Below, in pieces: positions 35,414 through 50,035 of a DNA stretch of 64,000 bases. The stretch comes from Methanobrevibacter ruminantium M1 (lineage in GTDB: Archaea > Methanobacteriota > Methanobacteria > Methanobacteriales > Methanobacteriaceae). Where the stretch lies: assembly GCF_000024185.1 (NCBI RefSeq), contig NC_013790.1, positions 310,001 to 374,000 of the forward strand. Reading direction: 5' to 3'. The position numbers and the translations under genes were made by a program. The notes below the pieces were generated by a model that saw only the letters and a program-made list of their open reading frames with translations, made no database searches and was not told where the DNA came from. Every line of letters begins with the position of its first letter. Position 1 is the stretch's first letter.

Positions 35414-36145
35414 TTATTTAATTACTTTTTTCATCATGGCAAAGACTATTTTAGCAAATATTCCTTTAAAGAATCCTAATTTTACATTTGGTGCAAAATC
35501 ATAATTTACAAGTCCGGTTGCTTCCCAATATTCCTTATCTGCTTTTATTGGATCTTTACTTACTGCCATTGCTCTCCAAACATTGTAAAATACAATATCC
35601 ATAAATTTAGGGGAGTGGAGTTTTTTGGAGCTAACGTCCTTTTGGAACTTCTGCGCTGTCTTATTTATCTCTTCTGTGTTTATTGTGTCTTTTCCGCCGC
35701 AGGCATAAGTTATCTTATGGTTCTTATTAAATCCCCAATGTCTAAGGGTTTCATCCATATATTTGGCTACATTCTTATGACCTGCCCCTGCAGTTGATAC
35801 TATGATTAGAGCTTTCTTATCAAAGAATTCTGGTCTGTGGTAGATATATGCAGTATGGTCAAAGAAGTTCTTTATAAGTCCTGTGACATTCATAGCATAA
35901 ACTGGGCTTGTTATTATGAGTCCGTCAGCTTCTTTTATCTTTTCTACGATTGGATGTACTGTTTCAAAGTGAGGGCATTTATCTTCCCCTTCCATTATGC
36001 ATTTAAAGCAGCCATTGCACATTGGTATTTTTGTTTTCATTAATTGAATCTCTTCAAATTCACCTTCTAGGTTTGTTTTAGCTTGCTTTACCATGGCCCA
36101 TGTGTTTTTCTTCCTTGGGGAACCGTTAATAATTAGATATTTCAT
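35414..36145 (-). CDS. Flavodoxin-fold NADPH-dependent FMN reductase-like protein
   Basis: A 243-residue flavoprotein. The N-terminal phosphate-binding loop INGSPRKKNTWAMV and the Cys-containing segment MCNGCFKCIMEGEDKCPHF mark the iron-sulfur-flavoprotein/NADPH-dependent FMN reductase group; the spacing CxxCxxC-x7-C could hold a [4Fe-4S] cluster as in archaeal Isf, though the shorter relatives do not. LIITSPVYAMNVTGLIKNFFDH is the flavin-binding face. A C-terminal extension of about 70 residues ends in a basic hydrophobic helix (FKGIFAKIVFAMMKKV). Probably redox or xenobiotic stress. Ribosome binding site AAGGATGTGA. It lies 68 bp after the TetR-GNAT gene. Confidence 0.85.
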   Translation of the reverse strand: MKYLIINGSPRKKNTWAMVKQAKTNLEGEFEEIQLMKTKIPMCNGCFKCIMEGEDKCPHFETVHPIVEKIKEADGLIITSPVYAMNVTGLIKNFFDHTAYIYHRPEFFDKKALIIVSTAGAGHKNVAKYMDETLRHWGFNKNHKITYACGGKDTINTEEINKTAQKFQKDVSSKKLHSPKFMDIVFYNVWRAMAVSKDPIKADKEYWEATGLVNYDFAPNVKLGFFKGIFAKIVFAMMKKVIK

Positions 36146-36213: not shown

Positions 36214-37557
36214 TCATTCCAACTGTCCTTCTTGAACCCTCTTTTGCTTATACTCAAAGTTTTCATCAAATTTATCTACGTCATCTTGGCTGACGTTAAA
36301 GACTTTTGGATTGTAGAAGATTCCTCTGTCGTAGTCCTTGTCTTTAAAAAGGTCTTTAAATATTCTTATCATGAAGAATGGATTTTCCTCGCTTGTATCT
36401 GTTCCCTCCAGAAATAGATTGTATTTAGATGCGCTTTCAAATCCAAATCTGTTATAATAGTTCTCATCCCCTATTACAAAGACATATGGAATGTTCTTGT
36501 TTTTTGCAAGTCTTAAGGTATGCTTTATCAATCTGAATCCATATCCCTGGTTTTGGTATTTTGGATTGATTGCTATTGGGCCAAGAACAACTGCTTCCTC
36601 ATTCCAATCGTTTATCTTCTCCATTCCTTGATTGTTTTTCTTATAAAGGTTCAGATTTCCCTTAGAATAGTTTATATGTCCTATTATTTCATCATCTTCC
36701 TCTATAATGTATGCCAGGTCCTTTATGAAGCTTGGGTCTTCTCTTAGATTGTAGACGATAAAGTGTTCATAAGCTCCTGGACGATATATGTTCCAAAATG
36801 CATCTCTTACAAGATTTTCAACTTTTTTGTAGTCCTTTTCCTCTTCCAATCTCATGATTTCTGTTTCTAATTCTTTGTTTTCTTTATCGTGATTGGAGGA
36901 TGGATTGTTTTTATTATTGTCTATTTTAGATTCTTCATTGTTTATTTTAACTGAGTTAAATATTATCTTCATATGATCGGTTGTTCTTCTTTCGAAGTCC
37001 TTTAGGAACTTTTCATCATCTTCAGGATAGTTGAATATGAAATGTTCATATAATAGGAATATTCCATATGAATAGAAAGATTCTGCAAGCTGTTTGCTGT
37101 TTGCATCTTTTCTTATGATTTCTTTTTCTTTCATTAGATTGAACAGCTCTTCCCAACCTTTTATTGCATAGTCAATGATTCCTTCCTTTACAAAAGCCTT
37201 CATCTTTTCATTGTGATACGATCCTACCAGAAATATTCTTGTGATTTTCATCATTCTCTCTTCAGAGAGTTTTGATAGGAATCTGTCGCTGCCCTGCTTA
37301 TAGAAATATTCAAATCCTAAATCCAGATTGTCGTTGGATTGCATAATAGGAGCTTCTTCCTTTAGCATTTCGCTGATATAATAGTTTAATATTGATTCCA
37401 ATATTGCTTCCTTGCTTTGGTAGTGGTTATAGATTGAGCTTTCCTTTATTCCTACTTCTTTGGCGATTTGTCGTATGGATGTGTTTGTATATCCATATTG
37501 GGAGAATAAATCAATTGAAGAGTCAAATATCTTTTCTTTTGTATTCTTTTTAGCCAT
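36214..37557 (-). CDS. TetR regulator fused to a GNAT acetyltransferase
   Basis: A 447-residue two-domain protein. Residues 1-200 are a TetR repressor: HTH YGYTNTSIRQIAKEVGIKESSIYNHYQSKEAI, then a helical ligand/dimer domain. Residues 203-232 are a hydrophilic Asn/Lys-rich linker. Residues 233-410 are a GNAT N-acetyltransferase: GPIAINPKYQNQGYGFRLIKHTL holds the acetyl-CoA pyrophosphate loop (Q335-G340), and GDENYYNRFGFESA is the typical end of YhbS-like acetyltransferases. The frame is continuous, so this is a true fusion. Two palindromes upstream probably bind the TetR part. Ribosome binding site AAGGGAATA. It may sense a compound and acetylate it or a protein. Confidence 0.9.
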   Translation of the reverse strand: MAKKNTKEKIFDSSIDLFSQYGYTNTSIRQIAKEVGIKESSIYNHYQSKEAILESILNYYISEMLKEEAPIMQSNDNLDLGFEYFYKQGSDRFLSKLSEERMMKITRIFLVGSYHNEKMKAFVKEGIIDYAIKGWEELFNLMKEKEIIRKDANSKQLAESFYSYGIFLLYEHFIFNYPEDDEKFLKDFERRTTDHMKIIFNSVKINNEESKIDNNKNNPSSNHDKENKELETEIMRLEEEKDYKKVENLVRDAFWNIYRPGAYEHFIVYNLREDPSFIKDLAYIIEEDDEIIGHINYSKGNLNLYKKNNQGMEKINDWNEEAVVLGPIAINPKYQNQGYGFRLIKHTLRLAKNKNIPYVFVIGDENYYNRFGFESASKYNLFLEGTDTSEENPFFMIRIFKDLFKDKDYDRGIFYNPKVFNVSQDDVDKFDENFEYKQKRVQEGQLE

Positions 37558-37632
37558 GTTATTCCCTTATTATTCTTAAAATCTTTTTTGCTTGTTTTTT
37601 GGTCATTTTGAAACTTTTATCATTCTAAATTT

Positions 37633-37652
37633 TAACTAACACTTGTTAGTTA
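37633..37652. promoter_or_regulatory. TetR-type operator 1
   Basis: TAACTAACACTTGTTAGTTA: two perfect 9-bp arms around CT. It lies 76 bp before the TetR-GNAT start codon. A second copy is at 37687-37706. Size and symmetry are typical of TetR-dimer sites. Confidence 0.75.
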
Positions 37653-37686
37653 ACTCTATATGGTATTTTTGACTTTTTAATTTATA

Positions 37687-37706
37687 AAACTAACGATTGT
37701 TAGTTA
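37687..37706. promoter_or_regulatory. TetR-type operator 2
   Basis: AAACTAACGATTGTTAGTTA: arms AACTAAC and GTTAGTT around GATT, matching operator 1 in its outer bases. The centres are 54 bp apart. The sequence between them (TATGG... TTTATAAA) contains TATA-like elements, so binding would cover the promoter. Confidence 0.75.
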
Positions 37707-37968: not shown

Positions 37969-38997
37969 CTATTTAAATATATAAACAGTGCTTCTGCCTT
38001 TGCCTTTTGACTTAATCAATCCTTTTTTAACTAATTCATTAATATAAAAATGGGACCTTTGGGCAGATAAGTTAAGCAGATCCTGAACTTCCTTATTTTT
38101 TATGGAATTGTTTTTTTCAATAAACTCCAATATTTTAATCTCTTTTTCGTTTAATTTAATTTTGCCATTCATTTTTATATCAAAACGGGATATGCTTTCA
38201 ATATCCTTTTTAACATTGGATAATGAAACTAAAAATCCTGTGGAAAAATATTCTAGCCATTCAGTTAAATCTTGAGACTTATCTGCAGATTGCAATGCAT
38301 TGTAGTAGGATTGCCTATCCTGATTATAATATTCATCAAGGGAAAAATATCTTTTTATGTCAAAATCTTTTAAAAGAAGTATTAAAGTAGCTAATGCTCT
38401 TGCATTTCTTCCATTGCCATCTACAAAAGGATGAATTCTAACGAATTCATAGTGGAAGATTCCTGCAAGAATGATTGGATTTAAATCCTCTTGAACGTCT
38501 GCCCAATCCAATAATTCCCTGATTAAATAAGGAACTTTAATAGGGCTTGGAGGCACATAATTAAGTTGGCCTGTTTTTATATTCCCAATTACTACTGGAG
38601 AATCTCTGAATTTTCCTGCCATATTAGGATCTTTAAGGGTTCCTTCAGTGATATTTTTATGAATATCTAAAATAGTTTCTTCATCAATTTTTTCATAGTT
38701 ATCTAAATTTTCAAGTGTTTTAAAGTAATTTAAAACTTCTATTTCAGATTTATTTAATTTAAGCTCATCTAATTTATTTTCCTGTTTTAAATTAAATAAT
38801 TTTGTTACTTGTTTAAAATCCAATGGATTTCCTTCAATGGATGTTGAATTATAAGAAGATGTGATTATTGCTTTATTTCTTAGTAAAATGTCATAGGAAG
38901 GCAAAATTTGGGAATTCAAAATAAATTCCTTGATGGTGGAAATTTCCATCAAATTATTGATGATTTTATTGGTATATTGAAACTTTGCATCAAACAT
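37969..38997 (-). CDS. Fic-domain protein (class II, self-inhibited) with C-terminal winged helix
   Basis: A 342-residue Fic protein. The catalytic motif HPFVDGNGRNAR (H189) is fully canonical, so it should transfer AMP or another nucleotide to a protein hydroxyl. The N-terminal inhibitory motif SxxxEG is present (S51, E55, G56 in STSIEGN), placing it in class II, in which the Glu blocks ATP binding. After the Fic core, residues about 275-342 form a winged-helix DNA-binding domain (KEIKILEFIEKNNSIKNKEVQDLLNLS). Ribosome binding site TTAGGAGG. Single gene; no antitoxin beside it. Confidence 0.93.
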   Translation of the reverse strand: MFDAKFQYTNKIINNLMEISTIKEFILNSQILPSYDILLRNKAIITSSYNSTSIEGNPLDFKQVTKLFNLKQENKLDELKLNKSEIEVLNYFKTLENLDNYEKIDEETILDIHKNITEGTLKDPNMAGKFRDSPVVIGNIKTGQLNYVPPSPIKVPYLIRELLDWADVQEDLNPIILAGIFHYEFVRIHPFVDGNGRNARALATLILLLKDFDIKRYFSLDEYYNQDRQSYYNALQSADKSQDLTEWLEYFSTGFLVSLSNVKKDIESISRFDIKMNGKIKLNEKEIKILEFIEKNNSIKNKEVQDLLNLSAQRSHFYINELVKKGLIKSKGKGRSTVYIFK

Positions 38998-39300
38998 TAA
39001 AGGCCTCCTAATAATTCATATCTGTGTTTATTATAATAAATTATCTAAATTATTATATATAAATTATGCATCAGAATTTAAAAAATATATTTGTTCGTGG
39101 CTTGATGAATAATATGATTTTGACTTGATGATTATTTTTAAACACTAATAAATAATCTTAAATTATCATATAAAGCATTAATATTAGTGGAAATAAAACT
39201 GAATTTACTTGATGATTATCCTTGATGATAAATAAAATTTCATCATTTAAAAAAAGAAAAATAGAAGAGCAATAAGCAAATTGCTCTTTTAAAAAAGTTT
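38998..39300. other. Spacer between fic and the adhesin gene
   Basis: AT-rich; promoter of fic on one side and the terminator of the adhesin-like gene on the other (39248-39288). A diverged direct repeat around CTTGATGATTAT is seen near 39125 and 39208. No ORF. Confidence 0.4.
39248..39288 (-). terminator. Terminator of the adhesin-like gene
   Basis: AAGAGCAAT (39265-39273) and ATTGCTCTT (39280-39288) form a perfect 9-bp stem with a 6-nt loop, 12 bp after the stop. On the minus strand it is followed by CTATTTTTCTTTTTTT, a strong T run. Confidence 0.8.
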
Positions 39301-42300
39301 TTATTTAAGTGTAAGTTTGGATTTTACGCTTGTTGCCTTATATGTTTCATCTCCGGCATACTTTGCAGTAAAGCTATAAGTTCCTTTTTTGGATAATGAA
39401 ACATTGACTTTAGCAAGCCCTTTTGAATTTGTGCTTGCTGTATAAGTCTTACCGTTAACTGTGAAGCTTATCTTCTTGCCGCTTATTGGGTTTCCATTAG
39501 ATGTCTTAAAGGTGGCAGTCAATTCTTTTGTCTTTGCGCTTGCCTTATAAGACTTATTAGGGGCACTTAGCTTAGGGCTATGAAGATTTACAGTGATTTT
39601 TGCCACTTCAAATGCTCCGAGATAGTCCTCATCTCCAAGGAATCCTATGGCGAATGTGTAGGTTCCCTTATATGCGAGGTTTATCTGCAGCTTTGCGCTT
39701 CCGTTTTCATCTGTGACTCTGTCATAGACTCTTCCATTGAAACCTATTTTTATTGGCTTGTTTGTTAGGGCTGTTCCATTTTGGTCTTTTAAGGTGACAA
39801 CAAAGTATTCTCCAACTCTTCCGTCTGCACTTGCTACGGCAGTTGTTGTCATGTTCTTGCAGTCTATTATTGTAGATGCTCTGCTGGATATGTTTTCCTT
39901 ATCGCTTTCTATTGTATATACCTTAAGACAGACTGTTCTATTCTTATCGGCATAATCGATCCAATTGCTGCCATCTGCACTTATCATAGACATATTAGGG
40001 ATATAGTGTTGCCTTGAATATGCTTGGAAAGGAAGTGCATTGCTTTTGAATATTACTTTAAATGTGTCATTTGCCTTGATTGGAACATATTTGTCCAAAA
40101 CGATTGTTCTGAATCCTGCAAACTCACTTGTTCCGTTTTGGGAGTGTGCCTTTTCTCCATTTACATATATGTCAAAGGAATAGTCGATTCCTGATTCGTT
40201 GAAATAGGTTCCAACAGCTCCAATCCACTCGTCGTACTTTGATACGAACTCATTGGAGTAATAGCTGTAGTTTTCATCAAATCCTGCAAGGCCTGTGATG
40301 TCTGTTTGATAGTTGACATGATAGTCGTTAGTGTTTTCAAAGATATAGGCTACACCTGCAGCTTGAGGAATGACTGGGTAGAAATCCTTGGATAATATTG
40401 AAAGGTCATAATAGGATAGGTAAACATAGCCATCTTCTCCTAATTTAGAATCTTCTGAATCTTTCATTAGCCAAGCTCCAGGTCCTGGAGGAATATTGGT
40501 CTCGTCTATGGCCATTTTGGTATTTACTTTTTCAGGAGGGCAATTGTCATCCCATCCGATTAAGGTAACGAAATGTCCTGGCTGCAGGTCCACTTCAGTG
40601 TAATTGGCAGTGTAATCATAAGGAGCATACATATATTGGATGGATACTGCACCATATTTCATTATTGCTTCCTTCATCAGATTCCTTGTATCGTTTCTTC
40701 CGCCGAAGATTATCATTGCATCCTGAACATGGATTCTCTTATCGGTTTCTGCAACGTCAGAGTACATTCCTCTTTCATCATATGGGTCATCTTCTGATGT
40801 GATGGCTCCATACCAGCTTAATGAATGGCCTAAACCACTGTAAGCATAACCTATGGCACTGTTTCTTCTATCCCCTTCGGAGAAATATTTTAATTGGAGA
40901 TTTTGAATATTGTTTTCAGAAATATTATATAAGACTCCAGTCTGCTTTAAAAGAGCGCATTCCAATGCTCCGGCAGTTGCAAATGCCCAGCAGGCCACAT
41001 TGTCTCCTTGGAATTTAAGAGGGCTAGCCCAACCCCAATCACGGCCGTCAAATTTTGAAGGCAATTTATCTACATTGATTGTATTGTTTGTCAGATTAAG
41101 TTTTATTCCCTTATTTTCAACAGAAACAATATAATTGGTATTATTCCATAGGAATAAATCTGTAGAAGTGTTATTTTCAAATTTGGAATTGCTTGCGAAG
41201 TTTGCATAGACTGCAACTCCTCCGTTATCAAATATGGAATTTCTTATCTCTGCATCTACGTCATTGGCGTATATGATGCTTTCTTTGCCTGAAGAGATAT
41301 TATTCACCTTATTATCTGTAAAATTGGAATTATCAATTATTAATTTGCTATAATCAAAGTAGATTGCTCCTGCGTCCTTATCGGCGCTATTGTTTATGAT
41401 ATTGCAATCTTTAAGACTTAAATCTGCCCAGGAACTGTAGATTGCACCTCCTATCTTGGCATGGCAATTTATGATATTTAGATTGGAGAAGTCTAGGATT
41501 TCTCCTTGGCTTGCAATTGCTCCTCCAAAGTCGGATGAGGCATCTGTTATGTTGCAATTGTTAATATGGATAGTTTTTGCAAAGCCCTCAGAACTTGAAT
41601 CCAGATTCAAGTAGATTGCACCTCCGTTATGAGTTGATGAGACATTGGAAAATTCACAATTCTCAAAAAGCATGTCTTCACCCGGAATATAGGGGCCATC
41701 TTTATTTGTTTTTGGGAAATACTTTGCAAAAATTGCTCCTGCAGTTATTTCGGCATTCAAGTTCTTGAATTTTGAATTTTTAATGACAAAGGTGTTTCCT
41801 TTGAAATTTATTGCTCCTCCATAGGGGGCAGTGAAATTTTCAAAGCTGCAGTTATCTATATACAATTCGAACCTATTGGCATAAATAGGGCTTCCAATCC
41901 CTTTTCCGTTGGAGAAATTTGAATTTGTAATTCTTAGCTCTGCAAAATTTGTGTATATGAGGTTAGTATTATTGTTTGAATCGAAATTACAGTTATTTAT
42001 AGTTAATGCTCCATTGAAAACTGATATCATTCCCTCTGAATACAAAATGCCCAATTTATTGTGATTGTTAGTGAAATTGACATTATTTAAACTGATATTT
42101 CCTCCGTCTTCATTAACTATGGTGTAATCGTTGCAGTTAATGAAAGTTAAGTCATTGATGATTATATTTAGTGATTCCTTTAAAAATTCAAATCCTCCAG
42201 CTTTATTGGATCCATCAATGACATGGTTATTTCCGTTTATCACTAGATTGGTTTTATTTATGCTTATAAAGGTGTGGTTATCGCTTTCAGTGTATTTATA

Positions 42301-42603
42301 GTCGTTTTCTATATTGAACGTATCTTCGCAGTTTTTTATGTCATTATAGAGATCATTATAGGTCTTATCTTCAGATGCTTTTAGCAAATCATTTTCTTGA
42401 TTATTTGCCTGCAAATTTTGGTTTAGATTTGTATCTGATTGATATGCTTCATTTAATTGCAAATCTTGATTTATATCTTGATTTGCATCATTTTGCAGAT
42501 TTTGATTTATACTCATATCATTATCATTCGCTGAAACTGTTGAAATACTGAATAGGATACATATTATGAGTAAAAATACAAAATACTTTGATTTTAACTT
42601 CAT
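39301..42603 (-). CDS. Secreted adhesin-like protein with papain-like (C1) protease domain
   Basis: 1100 residues. A signal peptide (residues 1-25, cut near VSANDN) precedes a low-complexity Asn/Gln-rich segment (30-75) and a right-handed beta-helix (about 110-500) with repeated ...NCxF.N..A..GGAIY units. Then comes a C1-type peptidase domain: DGRDWGWASPLKFQGDNVACWAF with C538 and Q532, His677 in QPGHFVTLIGWDD, and D715 in WLMKDSE where papains have Asn. A beta-rich lectin-like region and two Ig-like repeats (ends KATSVKSKLTLK) follow. Methanobrevibacter encodes many such surface proteins, thought to bind other cells or host glycans. No C-terminal anchor is visible. Ribosome binding site AAGAAGGTATAAA. 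Confidence 0.9.
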   Translation of the reverse strand: MKLKSKYFVFLLIICILFSISTVSANDNDMSINQNLQNDANQDINQDLQLNEAYQSDTNLNQNLQANNQENDLLKASEDKTYNDLYNDIKNCEDTFNIENDYKYTESDNHTFISINKTNLVINGNNHVIDGSNKAGGFEFLKESLNIIINDLTFINCNDYTIVNEDGGNISLNNVNFTNNHNKLGILYSEGMISVFNGALTINNCNFDSNNNTNLIYTNFAELRITNSNFSNGKGIGSPIYANRFELYIDNCSFENFTAPYGGAINFKGNTFVIKNSKFKNLNAEITAGAIFAKYFPKTNKDGPYIPGEDMLFENCEFSNVSSTHNGGAIYLNLDSSSEGFAKTIHINNCNITDASSDFGGAIASQGEILDFSNLNIINCHAKIGGAIYSSWADLSLKDCNIINNSADKDAGAIYFDYSKLIIDNSNFTDNKVNNISSGKESIIYANDVDAEIRNSIFDNGGVAVYANFASNSKFENNTSTDLFLWNNTNYIVSVENKGIKLNLTNNTINVDKLPSKFDGRDWGWASPLKFQGDNVACWAFATAGALECALLKQTGVLYNISENNIQNLQLKYFSEGDRRNSAIGYAYSGLGHSLSWYGAITSEDDPYDERGMYSDVAETDKRIHVQDAMIIFGGRNDTRNLMKEAIMKYGAVSIQYMYAPYDYTANYTEVDLQPGHFVTLIGWDDNCPPEKVNTKMAIDETNIPPGPGAWLMKDSEDSKLGEDGYVYLSYYDLSILSKDFYPVIPQAAGVAYIFENTNDYHVNYQTDITGLAGFDENYSYYSNEFVSKYDEWIGAVGTYFNESGIDYSFDIYVNGEKAHSQNGTSEFAGFRTIVLDKYVPIKANDTFKVIFKSNALPFQAYSRQHYIPNMSMISADGSNWIDYADKNRTVCLKVYTIESDKENISSRASTIIDCKNMTTTAVASADGRVGEYFVVTLKDQNGTALTNKPIKIGFNGRVYDRVTDENGSAKLQINLAYKGTYTFAIGFLGDEDYLGAFEVAKITVNLHSPKLSAPNKSYKASAKTKELTATFKTSNGNPISGKKISFTVNGKTYTASTNSKGLAKVNVSLSKKGTYSFTAKYAGDETYKATSVKSKLTLK

Positions 42604-42737
42604 TTTATACCTTCTTATTTAAATTTTGATAGTTGTTTTTTTATATCTAATTCTTATTCTTTTTAGATATTTTTAGGCATTGACTTTTTTTTCTTATCTG
42701 GATATTTTTGATTATTTGGCTATTTTTTAATTATTAT

Positions 42738-43829
42738 TTATCCTTTAGTCCTTAACTTCCTATAAGCTAGTGCAGTGACTGTAGATATAATCAGCATACA
42801 TATTGAAACTATTGTAGTTACCAAATCATCAAATACTAATCCTTTGGAGAAATAAGTGATTAAGATTATTGTTACAGGTATATAGAACCATTGTGCAATA
42901 TAAATTTCATTAATATTGCGGCTTAGTGTTGAAAAGAACTTGGTAATTGAATCTGGCAGATAATCTGAAATCCAATAGCATAATCCGATGAATGCGTGGG
43001 CATTTATTATGCAGAATACTGCATCCAATGTGTTTAAAAAGTAATATAAGTGAACATCCTCTGAAAAGACTCCTCCCCAATAGCGTGAGGATATGAAGAA
43101 GTAAGCAAAAGCCACAATCAATAGGATCGGCCAGTATTTAAAGAATTCCCTTTTGTCCTTGGCTCTGATGAAATACTGTCCCCAGACGTATCCCGCAACT
43201 GGGAAGATAAACCAATTGAATAAAGGAAATGCGGTATGTCCGTTTTTAGCTCCAATGAAGTGACCGAAGAATGAGCATACTGCAGGGATTCCAAAGTCAA
43301 TTCCTATTGTGAAACTGCCGATTAGAGACATTATAACTGCAATTATAATCATAGCTTTATTTGAAACTTCGAATTTCCTTAGGATTCCCATAAGGATAAA
43401 TGCCAAACCTGCAAATGCCAAGATGTCAACACAAAAGATTATTAGTCCTCCAAATAGAGGGAAAGCCTCAGCATTAACGCCAAGGTATCCGGCAAGATAA
43501 TGAGGTAAGAAGAACTCAAAGACATTTACCAAAAGGCCTAAGAGATATAGGATAATTCCTCTTTTAATCATCAAGTTCCATTGGCTGTGCCTTGAATATA
43601 CCACACCGACTCCCATGCAGAACATGAAGACGACTGCAGCATAAGGCCTTCCTAAGACATTGCCGATTATATAAGTATAAGTTGGGCTTAAGCCGACATT
43701 ATATGCTTCAACTATCATGACAGTATGTAAAAAAATCATAAATATGATTGCAAATGCCTTAGCGATATCCAGTTCGACTTGTCTTCCTGTATTAACTTTT
43801 TCATCTGAAAATAAACTTGAAATATTCAT
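42738..43829 (-). CDS. Membrane acyltransferase (DUF1624/HGSNAT-like)
   Basis: A 363-residue integral membrane protein with about 10 membrane segments. The N-terminal signature GRQVELDIAKAFAIIFMIFLHTVMIVEA, with Asp and His in the first helix, resembles the heparan-alpha-glucosaminide acetyltransferase-like and acyltransferase-3 superfamily, which moves acetyl groups from the cytoplasm to extracellular sugars. It sits between the secreted adhesin/protease gene and a membrane phosphodiesterase gene, so modification of surface glycans is a reasonable inference. The start has no ribosome binding site (CAAAATAAAATAATAATATG) and may be leaderless. Confidence 0.78.
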   Translation of the reverse strand: MNISSLFSDEKVNTGRQVELDIAKAFAIIFMIFLHTVMIVEAYNVGLSPTYTYIIGNVLGRPYAAVVFMFCMGVGVVYSRHSQWNLMIKRGIILYLLGLLVNVFEFFLPHYLAGYLGVNAEAFPLFGGLIIFCVDILAFAGLAFILMGILRKFEVSNKAMIIIAVIMSLIGSFTIGIDFGIPAVCSFFGHFIGAKNGHTAFPLFNWFIFPVAGYVWGQYFIRAKDKREFFKYWPILLIVAFAYFFISSRYWGGVFSEDVHLYYFLNTLDAVFCIINAHAFIGLCYWISDYLPDSITKFFSTLSRNINEIYIAQWFYIPVTIILITYFSKGLVFDDLVTTIVSICMLIISTVTALAYRKLRTKG

Positions 43830-43983
43830 ATTATTATTTTATTTTGGGATAGTATATATATTAATGGCTTTTAGAATTATTTTTTTATGCTTTTGCTATT
43901 AGAACAAATGATATATGTTTTTAAAATAGAATAAGTCAGTTAAGGAATTAATAGCGGAAATAAGTAAAATTAAGAATAGTTGA

Positions 43984-44056
43984 CTAAGATAAGATTAAAA
44001 TAAAAGTAAAGTTAAAAATAATTTATTAAGATAAGATTAAAATAAAAGTAAAGTTA
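43984..44056. repeat. Direct repeat after the holin/phosphodiesterase gene
   Basis: About 31 bp (starting TAAGATAAGATTAAAATAAA) occurs at 43985 and again at 44027, 42 bp apart, almost exactly. It is followed by a second pair, ACATTCTAAGAATTAT, near 44089 and 44106. These lie in the convergent-free gap after the minus-strand gene ending at 44143. Confidence 0.75.
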
Positions 44057-44142
44057 AGAAAAAAAGAAAAATTAATTATGTTATCTAACATTCTAAGAAT
44101 TATTGACATTCTAAGAATTATGTAAGAATAGTAAAAGAAGAA

Positions 44143-46137
44143 TTATTCTTCTAGAGCAGTACTGTACTCTTTTTCTAGAGCAGTTTCATCATTACTGCAC
44201 TCTTTTTCTAGGGCAGTTTCATCATTACTGTACTCTTTTTCTAGGGCAGTATTATCATTACTGTACTCTTTTAGTTTCTTTAAATTCTCTTTTAAGATTT
44301 TATAAATACTTTCAGCACCAACAATCTCTTCATCACTGACATTCCATCCTGACGGATATAAGATGAATGGTTTTGATTGGCTTCCTCCAACTCCTCCATG
44401 GCTTCCAACCAACTCTTCAAATGCACAGACCTCATCATTTTCACAGTCATAGAAGCTGTTTACCAATATATCCGGTGTGTATTTGAATGAGCTGTTTCTT
44501 TTAAGGTGTCTTGCAATGTTTTTGCCAAATCCTTCAAGAGGATTTCCTCCTATAATATCTCCAGTGTCTAAATTGTAAATGCCCTTTTTACCCATTGCAA
44601 GGTCTCCTTCATCTGATCTGATGACAATAAATCCTACATATTCATTTTCAACGATTCCAGGAATCAGTTCTGGGAAGAATTTATTTATCTCTTCTATGCT
44701 TAATCTATAGTCCCATTGGGTTAGATAGATCATTGCAAGATTTCCTGAGGCAAGGACAATAACTTCAGAGTCTCCTAACTCTTCTAGATCCTTTTCATCT
44801 ATCAGATCATCGTTCTTTCTTGAAAAAGGAAGGAATGATTCGGCATAATGGTCTTCATTTGATGACATTTTTGCAAACATCTTCATCTCTTTTGGAAGCA
44901 GGGACTTTACATAATCCTCAAAGGATTGGCCGTATCTCTGCTTGAATGTTGCACCGTTTGTTTGGCCGTGGTCTGACTGAATGACAAACTCATATTTTCT
45001 AGGAGTGTACTTATTTGTATTTATTAAACGCTCTATCTGCTTGTTCATTCCTTTAAGGGCATACCAAGAGTCCTCATCGCGAACGCCAGAATGGTGAGCT
45101 ATCTCATCATATCCTAAATAGGTTGAATATGCAACGTCAATGTCGCCGACCATCATGTCTCCAATCAATGTTGAGGTGTTGATTTCCCTCATGAAAACAT
45201 TGGTTGCAGCTCTTGTTGGAATATAGGCTATGCCACGTTTGATTCTAGGCCTGATGTTCTTTACGCTGTGCTTTATTTGGGATATGATTTCCAAGGTCAT
45301 GTCGTAAATAAACAGGCATACTATACGGGCAAAGTTGCTAGGATTTGAGAATACTGAAAACCATGCCTTGTTGTATAGTTTTCGGATGTTTAGGATTTTG
45401 CTGAATGTAAATATTACATTGTCTGTATCACCGGAGAAGAGATTGGATCTGCTGGCTCCATTATCTACAAGAAGCCCATTTCCATCTGAAATTCTCTCTT
45501 CCAATGTTGTTACTTGAGTCACTCCAGAGCATTGCATCATCTGATTGTTGTTTTTCTTTTCAATCCATCTGAATGCGGTGATGTCTTCATTATTTCCATG
45601 CAGTATCCCTGCCTGGCTTGCCCCTGTTTGTGAGGATAGGTCTGTCTCCCACATTCTTAGGGTATGTGTATTATCAATCATTGATTTGAGGGTAGGCATA
45701 TATCCCTTATCAACCGCTTCCTTTAAGACGTCATATGCAAGACCGTCAATCTCAACGATTATGAGTCCCGGATAATCTTTCACTTCCCCTTTTCTTTTCT
45801 TTTCAGCATCCCTATAGACTGACCTGTAATAGGATCCTTCATCTTCAATGGTTAATATTGTAGATAGGGCTGTTGTAACAAAGGACATTGCTAGTGGAGC
45901 TAAAATTATTGCAGGGCCTTCCACATTTATGCCGAAAAGGGGTCCGCAGAAGTTTAATAATAGGCCATTTAGAATAAGTGTCCCTATTCCAAATGATAAA
46001 ACGAGAAATGGCATTAGGATTCTGGTGAGTATAGGCCATAAGATTGCATTGATTAGACTTACAAATATGATGAATAGTGCAACATCATTGAAATTGGTTA
46101 ATTTAACTCCTAATCCAAAAAAGCTAATTAAATACAT
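44143..46137 (-). CDS. Holin-4-like membrane domain fused to an alkaline-phosphatase-superfamily phosphodiesterase
   Basis: A 664-residue protein. Residues 1-95 form about three to four membrane helices like the phage-holin-4 superfamily (FVSLINAILWPILTRILMPFLVLSFGIGTLILNGLLL). From residue 124 there is an alkaline-phosphatase/nucleotide-pyrophosphatase core: metal ligand D131 in IIVEIDG, probable nucleophile T171 in SSQTGAS, SDHGQTNGA and SHGGVGGSQSKPFILYP. It probably hydrolyses a phosphodiester or phosphonate bond, or transfers a phospho-group, at the cell surface. The C-terminus ends in an 11-residue tandem repeat (TALEKEYSNDE). Related holin/phosphatase fusions occur in clostridia. GGAATG at the start gives only a weak ribosome binding site. 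Confidence 0.82.
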   Translation of the reverse strand: MYLISFFGLGVKLTNFNDVALFIIFVSLINAILWPILTRILMPFLVLSFGIGTLILNGLLLNFCGPLFGINVEGPAIILAPLAMSFVTTALSTILTIEDEGSYYRSVYRDAEKKRKGEVKDYPGLIIVEIDGLAYDVLKEAVDKGYMPTLKSMIDNTHTLRMWETDLSSQTGASQAGILHGNNEDITAFRWIEKKNNNQMMQCSGVTQVTTLEERISDGNGLLVDNGASRSNLFSGDTDNVIFTFSKILNIRKLYNKAWFSVFSNPSNFARIVCLFIYDMTLEIISQIKHSVKNIRPRIKRGIAYIPTRAATNVFMREINTSTLIGDMMVGDIDVAYSTYLGYDEIAHHSGVRDEDSWYALKGMNKQIERLINTNKYTPRKYEFVIQSDHGQTNGATFKQRYGQSFEDYVKSLLPKEMKMFAKMSSNEDHYAESFLPFSRKNDDLIDEKDLEELGDSEVIVLASGNLAMIYLTQWDYRLSIEEINKFFPELIPGIVENEYVGFIVIRSDEGDLAMGKKGIYNLDTGDIIGGNPLEGFGKNIARHLKRNSSFKYTPDILVNSFYDCENDEVCAFEELVGSHGGVGGSQSKPFILYPSGWNVSDEEIVGAESIYKILKENLKKLKEYSNDNTALEKEYSNDETALEKECSNDETALEKEYSTALEE
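44151..44275 (-). repeat. 33-bp in-frame tandem repeat at the gene's 3' end
   Basis: CTAG(A/G)GCAGT recurs at 44175, 44208 and 44241 (33-bp spacing), with a partial unit at 44151. It encodes three full and one partial copies of the 11-residue unit TALEKEYSNDE, an acidic, probably helical or disordered tail. The near identity of units indicates recent slippage, so copy number may vary between strains. Confidence 0.9.
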
Positions 46138-46719
46138 TCCTATTATGTTTCCAAATAAATATTATTAGGCTTCTTTTAATTGTAATTTGAGGAGGCCTTT
46201 CATAATCTTGGATGCGTTTCATTTTATCCCCTATTAATCTTATTTTGCTTTTTAAAGAGTTTGCTATTAAGGCAATATCTTTTTTTTTTAAGAGTTAACT
46301 ATTAAGGCATTTTTTTTAAGAGTTTACTATTAGACAATTTATTTTGCTTTTTAACTCTTATTGTCTTGAGGAAATTTCTTAAGTTTTTAACATTCCTTAT
46401 ACAATATTATATTTATTTTTAGATTAAAAAAATTTTTTGTAAATTTTTTTAGAATTCTTTAGGGATTTCTTTTAAACGAAAGTAAATTAATTTTTTTGGG
46501 ATTATGGGGTAATGTGTTTTTTTGGGATTATGGGATTGTTCATTTTAGTATGGATGAGTATGGATGATTTGGAGCATCTGTACATAAAAATATTAAAAAA
46601 TGAAGCAGATGTCTTATCAATTAGGATTATAATTTTGAAATAATACTTATCTTTATATATTATTAATAAAATATATATAAATGTTTTATTTAACTTAATT
46701 TAATTAAAGGTGAAACAAA
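46138..46719. other. 582-bp spacer, with repeats and one weak ORF
   Basis: Repeated words AAGAGTT(A/T)ACTATTA occur near 46254, 46291 and 46318, and TTTTTTTGGGATTATGGG occurs twice (about 46491 and 46518). A possible 43-codon frame (46512-46643) is described separately. Before the DUF4013 gene a TATA-like ATATATTATTAATAAAATATATATAAAT is seen. No RNA gene was recognised. Confidence 0.4.
46512..46643 (+). CDS. Doubtful 43-codon ORF
   Basis: ATG 46512 (or ATG 46530) to TAA 46641-46643. The second half has protein-like composition (MDDLEHLYIKILKNEADVL) in an otherwise AT-rich spacer, and the first half is hydrophobic. The upstream GGGGTA is too close to the first ATG. It could be a remnant of a longer gene. 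No family is recognised. Confidence 0.2.
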   Translation: MCFFGIMGLFILVWMSMDDLEHLYIKILKNEADVLSIRIIILK

Positions 46720-47433
46720 ATGGATATAAGTGAAATAATTGGAGATGCAATTGCATATCCTATACATAATATTAAAGCTTTAGTAATTTATATGATTATT
46801 GGAATCATTACTGGAATCTTAGGTGGCGCAAGTTTCATGGGCTTACTTATGAGCCTAACAGGCAAAAACGCTCTTGCTGCTGGAGGATTTGGTATCCTTG
46901 GAGTATTAGTTCTCCTCATTGGAGCATTATTAATTACAGGATATGGTTTGGATATTGTAAAATTTGGTATTGAAAGAAGAGATGACGGTCCTGGAATTGA
47001 CTTAGTAAGACAAGTTTTAAATGCAGTTAAATTACTTATTGTCAGCATTGTTTACTACATTGTCCCTGCAATTATTGCTTGGGTATTGTTTACTCTCTTA
47101 GGTAGGGGTATATTAACTGTACTTATTGTTATGATAATTTCTATTATCTTCGCATTTGCTGAATTTATGGCAATATGCAGATTAGCTAAATATGATAGTT
47201 TAGGAGAAGCTTTAGCAATCGGTGAAGCTATTGGTGACATATCAAAAGTAGGTGTAATAAAACTTCTCGCAACTATTATTATAGTAGTTGTCATTGCAAT
47301 GATCGTATGCTTTATCTTATTATACGTTTATAAATTAAATAGCCTCATTGGAGGAATTTTATTGGGTATATTTGCTGTATACCTAACATTCTTCGCCAAT
47401 AGGGCAGCTGGTTTATTATACTCTGATGCATAA
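46720..47433 (+). CDS. DUF4013 membrane protein
   Basis: A 237-residue membrane protein with about six hydrophobic helices. The N-terminal amphipathic segment MDISEIIGDAIAYPIHNIKAL and the loop ALLITGYGLDIVKFGIERRDDGP mark the DUF4013 family, common in Methanobacteriales and of unknown function. The same layout (D-I-I/Y...SLEY/GLKYP..., later GYxYDVIKYAIDGR) is found in two other genes of this window (58462-59196 and 59225-60073). Ribosome binding site AAAGGTGAAAC. It is followed by a 51-bp tandem repeat array. Confidence 0.85.
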   Translation: MDISEIIGDAIAYPIHNIKALVIYMIIGIITGILGGASFMGLLMSLTGKNALAAGGFGILGVLVLLIGALLITGYGLDIVKFGIERRDDGPGIDLVRQVLNAVKLLIVSIVYYIVPAIIAWVLFTLLGRGILTVLIVMIISIIFAFAEFMAICRLAKYDSLGEALAIGEAIGDISKVGVIKLLATIIIVVVIAMIVCFILLYVYKLNSLIGGILLGIFAVYLTFFANRAAGLLYSDA

Positions 47434-47832: not shown

Positions 47833-48582
47833 CTATACTTTAAACAGTTTCTTTGCATTCTCTGTTGTTATTTCAATGATTTTCTCTTCTTTAATATCTA
47901 ATTCTTCTGCTAATTCTTCTATAATGTATTTTAAGTTCAGTGGTGTATTATTCTCTCCCCTTTTATCTTCTGGTGGAAGATATGGTGAATCTGTTTCTAT
48001 AAGTATATGGCTAATTCCTACTTGATTTACTGCTTTTCTTATTTTCTTGCTGTTTTTGTAGGTGATTGTCCCTCCTATTCCTATATAAAAGCCTAATTTA
48101 ACAAATTCCCTTGCCATTTCTGCTGAACCTTGGTAAGAATGAAGGGATCCAACTGCATTGTGATTCTTTAGTATGTCATAGGTGTCTTGTGATGCCTTTC
48201 TAGAATGGACTATGACTGGTAGTTTATGCTTTTCAGCAAGATCTAACATCTTTTCAAAGAGTTCCTTCTGACTGTCCTTATTTTCTTTTGTATGGTAATA
48301 GTCAAGTCCTATTTCTCCAACAGCTATTATTTTGTCATTATTGAGTTGACTGTCCAATAGATCAATCTCTTCATCACTTATTTCATCTGCAAGAGTATAG
48401 AAATATCCTAAAGCTCCATAGACATTATCATATTTGCTTGAAAGTTCTAAAATCTCCTTATTGCTTTTGGGATCAGTGCCGTTTAATATGAGGCAGATGT
48501 CGTTTTTTTGAGCTTCTTTGATTATTTCCTTTGCATTTTCCATTTCGCTATTGTAGATATGGCAGTGTGTATCTATAATCAT
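47833..48582 (-). CDS. tatD: TatD-family metal-dependent DNase
   Basis: A 249-residue TIM-barrel hydrolase. The metal ligands are clear: DTHCH at the N-terminus, AVGEIGLDYY (Glu), PVIVHSRKA (His), GSLHSYQGSAE (His) and LIETDSPYLPP (Asp). TatD enzymes are 3'-5' exonucleases acting on DNA or RNA and have been tied to repair. ATG 48582 is preferred over the upstream in-frame GTG (48594), which is part of the GTGAGG ribosome binding site. It converges with the DUF4013 gene. Confidence 0.93.
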   Translation of the reverse strand: MIIDTHCHIYNSEMENAKEIIKEAQKNDICLILNGTDPKSNKEILELSSKYDNVYGALGYFYTLADEISDEEIDLLDSQLNNDKIIAVGEIGLDYYHTKENKDSQKELFEKMLDLAEKHKLPVIVHSRKASQDTYDILKNHNAVGSLHSYQGSAEMAREFVKLGFYIGIGGTITYKNSKKIRKAVNQVGISHILIETDSPYLPPEDKRGENNTPLNLKYIIEELAEELDIKEEKIIEITTENAKKLFKV

Positions 48583-48798
48583 ATGAATCCTCACTTAAAT
48601 GATTATTCTTTTTTCAGATAGTCATTATTTATATTCATATATAGTTCTTTCAGATAGTCATTATTTATATTGATATATGGTTCTTTTTGCATTAAGTTTT
48701 TATTGTTTTAAGCCCAATAATTATATGATTGATTAAATTTAACTCTTTTTTAGTTATATTTATTTTTTATAATTTAATTTATTTTTTGGTGAGTGGAA

Positions 48799-49564: not shown

Positions 49565-50035
49565 TTATTTTTCCTTAACTACTTTCCCACTCATATGCTC
49601 TATGCTGATTTCATACAGTTCTGTTACATCCAAAAGCCTATCAATTTCATCTTTTGTTTCCTCTTCGCTTGGGAAGAACTTATTTCCTAAATAGGTGAGC
49701 TTTTCTATTTTTGTTTGCTTGTCATTGATTGTTTTCATTCTTCCAAAGACAATAACACTTTTGAATGTGTACCACCAACTATCTGACTTTGTTCCTTTAT
49801 CCATTACACAAAAGGATACTTTATCGTGTTTTTTGATTGCATCTCTTTTGTGGCTGTCTTTTATTGTTCCATGGAAGTATATCTTTCCATCTACATAGAC
49901 ATGACTTAATGGAACTGCATAAGGATATTCATCATCTCCTAAAACTGCTAAGACTCCACGAGGTTCGTTAATTAGGATATCGATACATTCCTCTTTGGAT
50001 AATTCTTGTTTTGCTCTTCTCATTTTTCTAAACAT
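49565..50035 (-). CDS. NimA-like PNPOx-fold flavoprotein
   Basis: A 156-residue split-barrel protein. MRRAKQELSKEECIDILINEPRGVLAVLGDDEYPYAVPLSHVYVDGKIYFHG and KVSFCVMDKGTKSD match the nitroimidazole-resistance (NimA) and pyridoxamine-phosphate-oxidase-related group, which bind FMN and reduce small molecules. The start could be ATG 50035 or the ATG four codons later (50023); neither has a clear ribosome binding site. Its only partner in spacing is the convergent tcdA-like gene. Confidence 0.85.
   Translation of the reverse strand: MFRKMRRAKQELSKEECIDILINEPRGVLAVLGDDEYPYAVPLSHVYVDGKIYFHGTIKDSHKRDAIKKHDKVSFCVMDKGTKSDSWWYTFKSVIVFGRMKTINDKQTKIEKLTYLGNKFFPSEEETKDEIDRLLDVTELYEISIEHMSGKVVKEK

Follow-up and report, generated by a model that had tools for sequence, protein, structure and literature searches.

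Autoregulated TetR repressors of the TtgR, MtrR, NalD, and SmeT type are characterized by a TetR_N helix-turn-helix (HTH), a helical ligand domain, palindromic operators beside their own promoter, and a detoxification-type gene as a neighbor. A second described system, relevant to a flavoprotein only, is the iron-sulfur flavoprotein (Isf) of methanogens, whose hallmark is a compact CX2CX2CX4–7C motif in an FMN-reductase fold. Among the GNAT acetyltransferases of E. coli, YhbS was one of those over-expressed in a lysine-acetylation screen, although no substrate was given for the YhbS-like subfamily (PMC6199490).

Proteins that resemble these three kinds are encoded at one locus of Methanobrevibacter ruminantium M1, located in a 64,000-nucleotide stretch of DNA that was analyzed as a whole and is referred to here as the window. 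The locus resembles the TtgR/MtrR/NalD/SmeT type in each of the features listed above. It differs in having repressor and GNAT enzyme in one polypeptide, at the head of its own operon rather than beside an efflux pump, with an archaeal promoter in front. A TetR/GNAT/flavoprotein operon with the same genes, order, and operators occurs in a sister genus (e.g., locus L071), but with TetR and GNAT encoded by two overlapping genes. No account of a TetR-GNAT fusion was found in the literature searched.

The fused protein and its flavoprotein partner

The fusion gene (36214..37557, minus strand) is a single open frame of 447 amino acids, with an ATG start and no internal stop. Its TetR domain comprises residues 1–204 (36946..37557, minus strand), including a TetR_N HTH at residues 10–55 (37393–37530, minus strand) that matches PF00440 with an E value of 1e-13 and 51.3 bits, versus a curated Pfam cut-off of 24. 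In a high-confidence AlphaFold2 model, this half is all-helical up to residue 203, including the C-terminal ligand/dimer domain, and it has Foldseek matches to TetR structures. The multidrug repressors TtgR, MtrR, NalD, and SmeT are among these fold neighbors, but the list is generic and points to no ligand.

A polar, disordered linker of 28 residues follows (205–232; 36862..36945, minus strand), with pLDDT values <50 at residues 217–229. Both its length and its sequence differ among relatives. The model of the whole fusion (mean pLDDT 88.6, pTM 0.53) consists of two confident domains with a disordered joint, and their mutual orientation is undefined.

The remainder of the protein is a YhbS-like GNAT domain (residues 233–447; 36217..36861, minus strand). 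Acetyltransf_1 (PF00583) matches residues 255–373 with an E value of 1.1e-10, which exceeds the curated Pfam cut-off. The best PDB matches in both sequence and fold are E. coli YhbS (4rs2, fold E value 1.6e-8) and a Brucella acetyltransferase (4zbg). Like these proteins, the domain keeps the acetyl-CoA loop; unlike them, it has a longer C-terminal part and is joined to a DNA-binding protein. The loop, QNQGYG at residues 335–340, fits the pattern Q/R-x-x-G-x-G/A. Q335 is present in all 32 aligned sequences, and G338 and G/A340 are almost always kept. The loop and Tyr368 are conserved in fused and split copies alike. The original prediction of a TetR and a GNAT in one frame is thus borne out by a real fusion in which both halves pass their Pfam cut-offs, except that the GNAT part had been ended at residue 410; it reaches ~447, since the AlphaFold2 model places the domain at 233–447.

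The flavoprotein gene (35414..36145, minus strand) starts at 36145, 68 bp 3′ of the fusion and on the same strand. Co-regulation of the two had been proposed, and it is supported by the comparative picture: in nearly all operon-bearing loci of both genera, a flavoprotein gene directly follows GNAT, or TetR if GNAT is missing, and is adjacent, overlapping, or abutting. The 68-bp gap could, however, hold a separate promoter. The protein belongs to the FMN-reductase family (PF03358, E value 2.5e-24) and has a CX2CX2CX7C motif, whose cysteines (C43-C46-C49-C57) are invariant in the alignment. The more general form, CX2CX2CX4–8C, was found in 60 of 60 homologues. A compact cysteine motif of this kind in an FMN_red fold resembles that of Isf. 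The nearest fold is SP1951-FMN (2oys), with azo, quinone, and nitrofurazone reductases among the neighbors; SP1951 and azo/quinone reductases are also the best PDB matches, and PDB sequence and fold searches gave no match to a solved structure labeled Isf.

The nature of this partner bears on what the GNAT half might act upon. Lysine residues of proteins are substrates of some bacterial GNATs (PMC6199490), and the enzyme could be a protein acetyltransferase acting on other proteins of the cell, which would make the operon a post-translational stress response instead of a means of small-molecule detoxification. We regard this as unlikely, given that the partner gene encodes an FMN reductase of the small-molecule type.

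The wider surroundings had been described as a stress block. UDG, MarR, MATE, and Nim-like proteins are indeed encoded nearby, but none of them lies in the tight operon. The Nim-like protein (49565–50035) resembles the 5-nitroimidazole reductase family at a score below the curated cut-off. Its homologues lie within a few kilobases of the operon in many sister-genus genomes, and its presence is compatible with a redox-detoxification neighborhood. In relatives within the genus, a TatD gene is directly upstream of the TetR-GNAT operon. TatD is located at 47833–48594 in the window, and a block of ~10 kb (37969–47433; Fic protein, adhesin-like protein, acyltransferase, phosphodiesterase-like protein, and DUF4013) separates it from the operon. 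Because TatD adjoins the operon in relatives, this block is a probable insertion in the window’s lineage.

Operators and related TetR loci

Two palindromes precede the fusion gene, as had been noted. The proximal one, AACTAACACTTGTTAGTT, is located at 37634–37651 (AACTAACAAGTGTTAGTT read on the minus strand), where it coincides with or closely follows the predicted transcription start. The distal one, AACTAACGATTGTTAGTT, is located at 37688–37705 (AACTAACAATCGTTAGTT read on the minus strand). It directly abuts a TATA-like box, TTATAAA (37681..37687, minus strand), which is the putative promoter element; across relatives, the distal operator usually abuts a TTATATA or TTATAAA box. Repression by blocking of basal factors is a natural inference from this arrangement. 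The palindromes are 54 bp apart and far above chance expectation, which is 0.08 matches in the window at ≤2 mismatches.

Conservation of these sites follows the TetR gene. An operator of the form AACTAACNNNNGTTAGTT is found 5′ of all 49 TetR genes at ≤2 mismatches, and 41 of them have two copies when counted strictly; in several of the cases scored as single, the proximal site is interrupted by the assigned start codon. By comparison, just 2 of 12 GNAT-only loci have even a weak match (Fisher p 7e-10). Spacing between the operators is 51–54 bp in the window’s genus and 29, 43–45, or 50 bp in the sister genus. The original prediction of two operators belonging to the fusion itself is supported by these results.

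The predicted regulon appears to be narrow. In 20 genomes searched with the exact operator pattern, every site lay ahead of a TetR gene of the same family, the reversed-pattern control gave zero, and no second locus with an exact operator was found in any genome. Likewise, the window’s own genome (2,937,203 bases) contains no exact copies beyond the two palindromes, and its sites with one or two mismatches are not in excess of the reversed-pattern control. At one other locus (L003), a site with one mismatch lies ahead of a gene for a small secreted-type protein.

Other members of the TetR subfamily, 37–41% identical, are associated with a different downstream gene. In two sister-genus genomes, a TetR gene (L122, 2678–3372; L123, 2455–3150) has the identical operator pair and is followed by a DUF116 gene. 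Genomes G036 and G041 are those in which exact sites precede a related TetR and then a DUF116 gene. At the level of sequence, the TetR-operator unit is shared with the DUF116 loci, and the cargo is different. A TetR paralogue in the window’s own genome (L105, 3151–4955; G000:C1, about 844150–845955) is followed by a radical-SAM gene; its only operator, ACCTAACGAACGGTAGGT, is diverged and unique in that genome. Radical-SAM-linked paralogues have a changed operator, ACCTAAC...GGTAGGT, together with the recognition-helix changes E39K and N44S, and the differences at helix positions 39 and 44 appear to belong to the three such paralogues in the alignment. Such paired changes are expected if the recognition helix reads the site.

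Another genus has related TetRs (45–47%; L109 and L110) with a flavoprotein of this family in the vicinity, again bearing the cysteine motif, and the association of TetR with flavoprotein may therefore be old. L110 also has a frame that resembles DUF116-operon proteins by eye.

Distribution and origin of the fusion

The full-length fusion occurs in 12 of the 18 genomes of the window’s genus, among 139 genomes of the family searched, and these proteins are 64–78% identical to that of the window. A thirteenth genome of the genus (G017, locus L055) retains TetR and flavoprotein but has lost the GNAT half. Besides G017, 5 of the 18 genomes lack the operon or gave no match to it; some of these are incomplete. 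A search across 152 genomes of the phylum confined the fusion to two genera of one family. Relatives from bacteria in a scan of genome contigs were GNAT-only, with ≤42% identity, and neither TetR nor flavoprotein was present beside the three that were checked. Plasmid records gave single-domain matches only and no full-length match.

Estimates of dN/dS, which are rough given that dS is close to saturation, were 0.05–0.10 for the TetR half and 0.08–0.12 for the GNAT half where dS could be estimated, and indicate purifying selection on both. The possibility that a sequencing or assembly error had joined two genes, on which the original prediction would have fallen, is ruled out by these values and by the recurrence of one and the same fused frame in 12 of the genus’s genomes; any residual chance of such an error is negligible. 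That recurrence also disposes of the other condition set for refutation, a lack of the fusion in close relatives.

Most sister-genus loci encode TetR and GNAT separately, with gene ends that overlap or are a few bases from each other, and their junctions are one stop or frame slip short of fusion. For example, L057, L074, L083, and L095 have the two genes in the same frame with a single in-frame stop between them, while L058, L072, and L082 are fused, nearly without a linker. The fused and split states require three changes on the TetR tree and also on the GNAT tree, and a single clade of all fused proteins is rejected (p-AU 3e-5 and 0.013 for the TetR and GNAT trees, respectively). Since the split state is the commoner one among relatives, the simplest reading of these trees is that fusion arose about three times; one fusion followed by later splits is not strictly excluded.

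The ease with which a stop might be lost between overlapping operon genes raises the question of whether the fusion matters at all. It may be neutral, leaving two independent domains with no gain, and this would be compatible with a sensor-effector operon. Junctions that are so nearly open, about three origins, and a freely evolving linker all point that way. Against this stands the retention of the fusion throughout its one large clade, with a single known loss of the GNAT half, although neutrality and a mild advantage are not separable here. Neutrality of the fusion is entertained as a possibility of some weight, though less likely than not.

A probable sensor with its enzymes

At the level of sequence, TetR, GNAT, and FMN reductase are shown to form one cluster of genes, with a conserved pair of predicted operators around its promoter. 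How tightly the parts depend on one another can be judged from loci that lack one of them. TetR-flavoprotein loci without GNAT (L055, L073, and L077) keep their operators. Conversely, nine sister-genus GNAT loci have the flavoprotein with no adjoining TetR match; GNAT and flavoprotein can persist without TetR or a good operator. TetR and GNAT are therefore each dispensable to the rest, which favors a modular operon of sensor plus enzymes over an obligate regulatory enzyme. The conserved operators, and the confinement of their exact sites to TetR genes of this family, support an autoregulated operon of predicted sensor, acetyltransferase, and FMN reductase.

The original prediction had offered, as one option, that the acetyltransferase takes part in repression. 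In such a scheme, the GNAT half would alter DNA binding by TetR when it binds acetyl-CoA or acetylates its own chain, and repression would read the acetyl-CoA supply. The covalent joining of the two, the conserved acetyl-CoA loop and Tyr, and the near invariance of two lysines of the DNA-binding domain, Lys7 and Lys49, are in keeping with such a regulator. However, both lysines are likewise conserved in aligned TetRs without a GNAT partner, the operators are kept in the GNAT-less operons, sister-genus copies are mostly unfused, and the linker is variable. This part of the prediction was not upheld, and we consider it improbable. The same low expectation applies to any one-chain regulator whose own acetyltransferase gates repression with feedback at the operator, be it by acetyl-CoA sensing or by acetylation of the repressor or of a bound inducer. 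Repression itself is probably independent of the acetyltransferase.

An autoregulated sensor-effector operon with compound-modifying products, in which the repressor and the first enzyme are fused, is in our judgment the probable identity of the locus. A TetR dimer on one or both predicted operators would block access of TBP/TFB and RNA polymerase to the TATA box and start site. Binding of a small hydrophobic or redox-active compound to the ligand domain would then release TetR. The products so induced may then modify the compound: the flavoprotein through a quinone-, azo-, or nitro-type reduction, the GNAT half through acetyl transfer. It is plausible that GNAT inactivates the compound sensed by TetR. 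The fusion may make permanent the translational coupling of the sister-genus genes. It would fix the ratio of repressor to acetyltransferase at 1:1, and probably provides two GNAT domains per repressor dimer via a flexible linker.

These analyses suggest, rather than show, that a xenobiotic or redox-active compound is sensed and chemically modified by the operon’s products, and a detoxification role is inferred from family resemblance. No gene listed in the lauric-acid transcriptome of M. ruminantium M1 (PMC5816558) was identifiable as the fusion locus.

The locus is best viewed as a familiar sense-and-detoxify operon in a tidy, repeatedly evolved variant, rather than as a new kind of machine. 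Its relatives form a natural, testable series, with partners that are separate, overlapping, fused about three times, or reduced by the loss of one, from which it may be learned what the fusion of a repressor to an enzyme gains. The predicted operator code for this TetR subfamily in gut and rumen methanogens could lead to inducible expression tools, and would also help to find the compounds that these methane producers sense.
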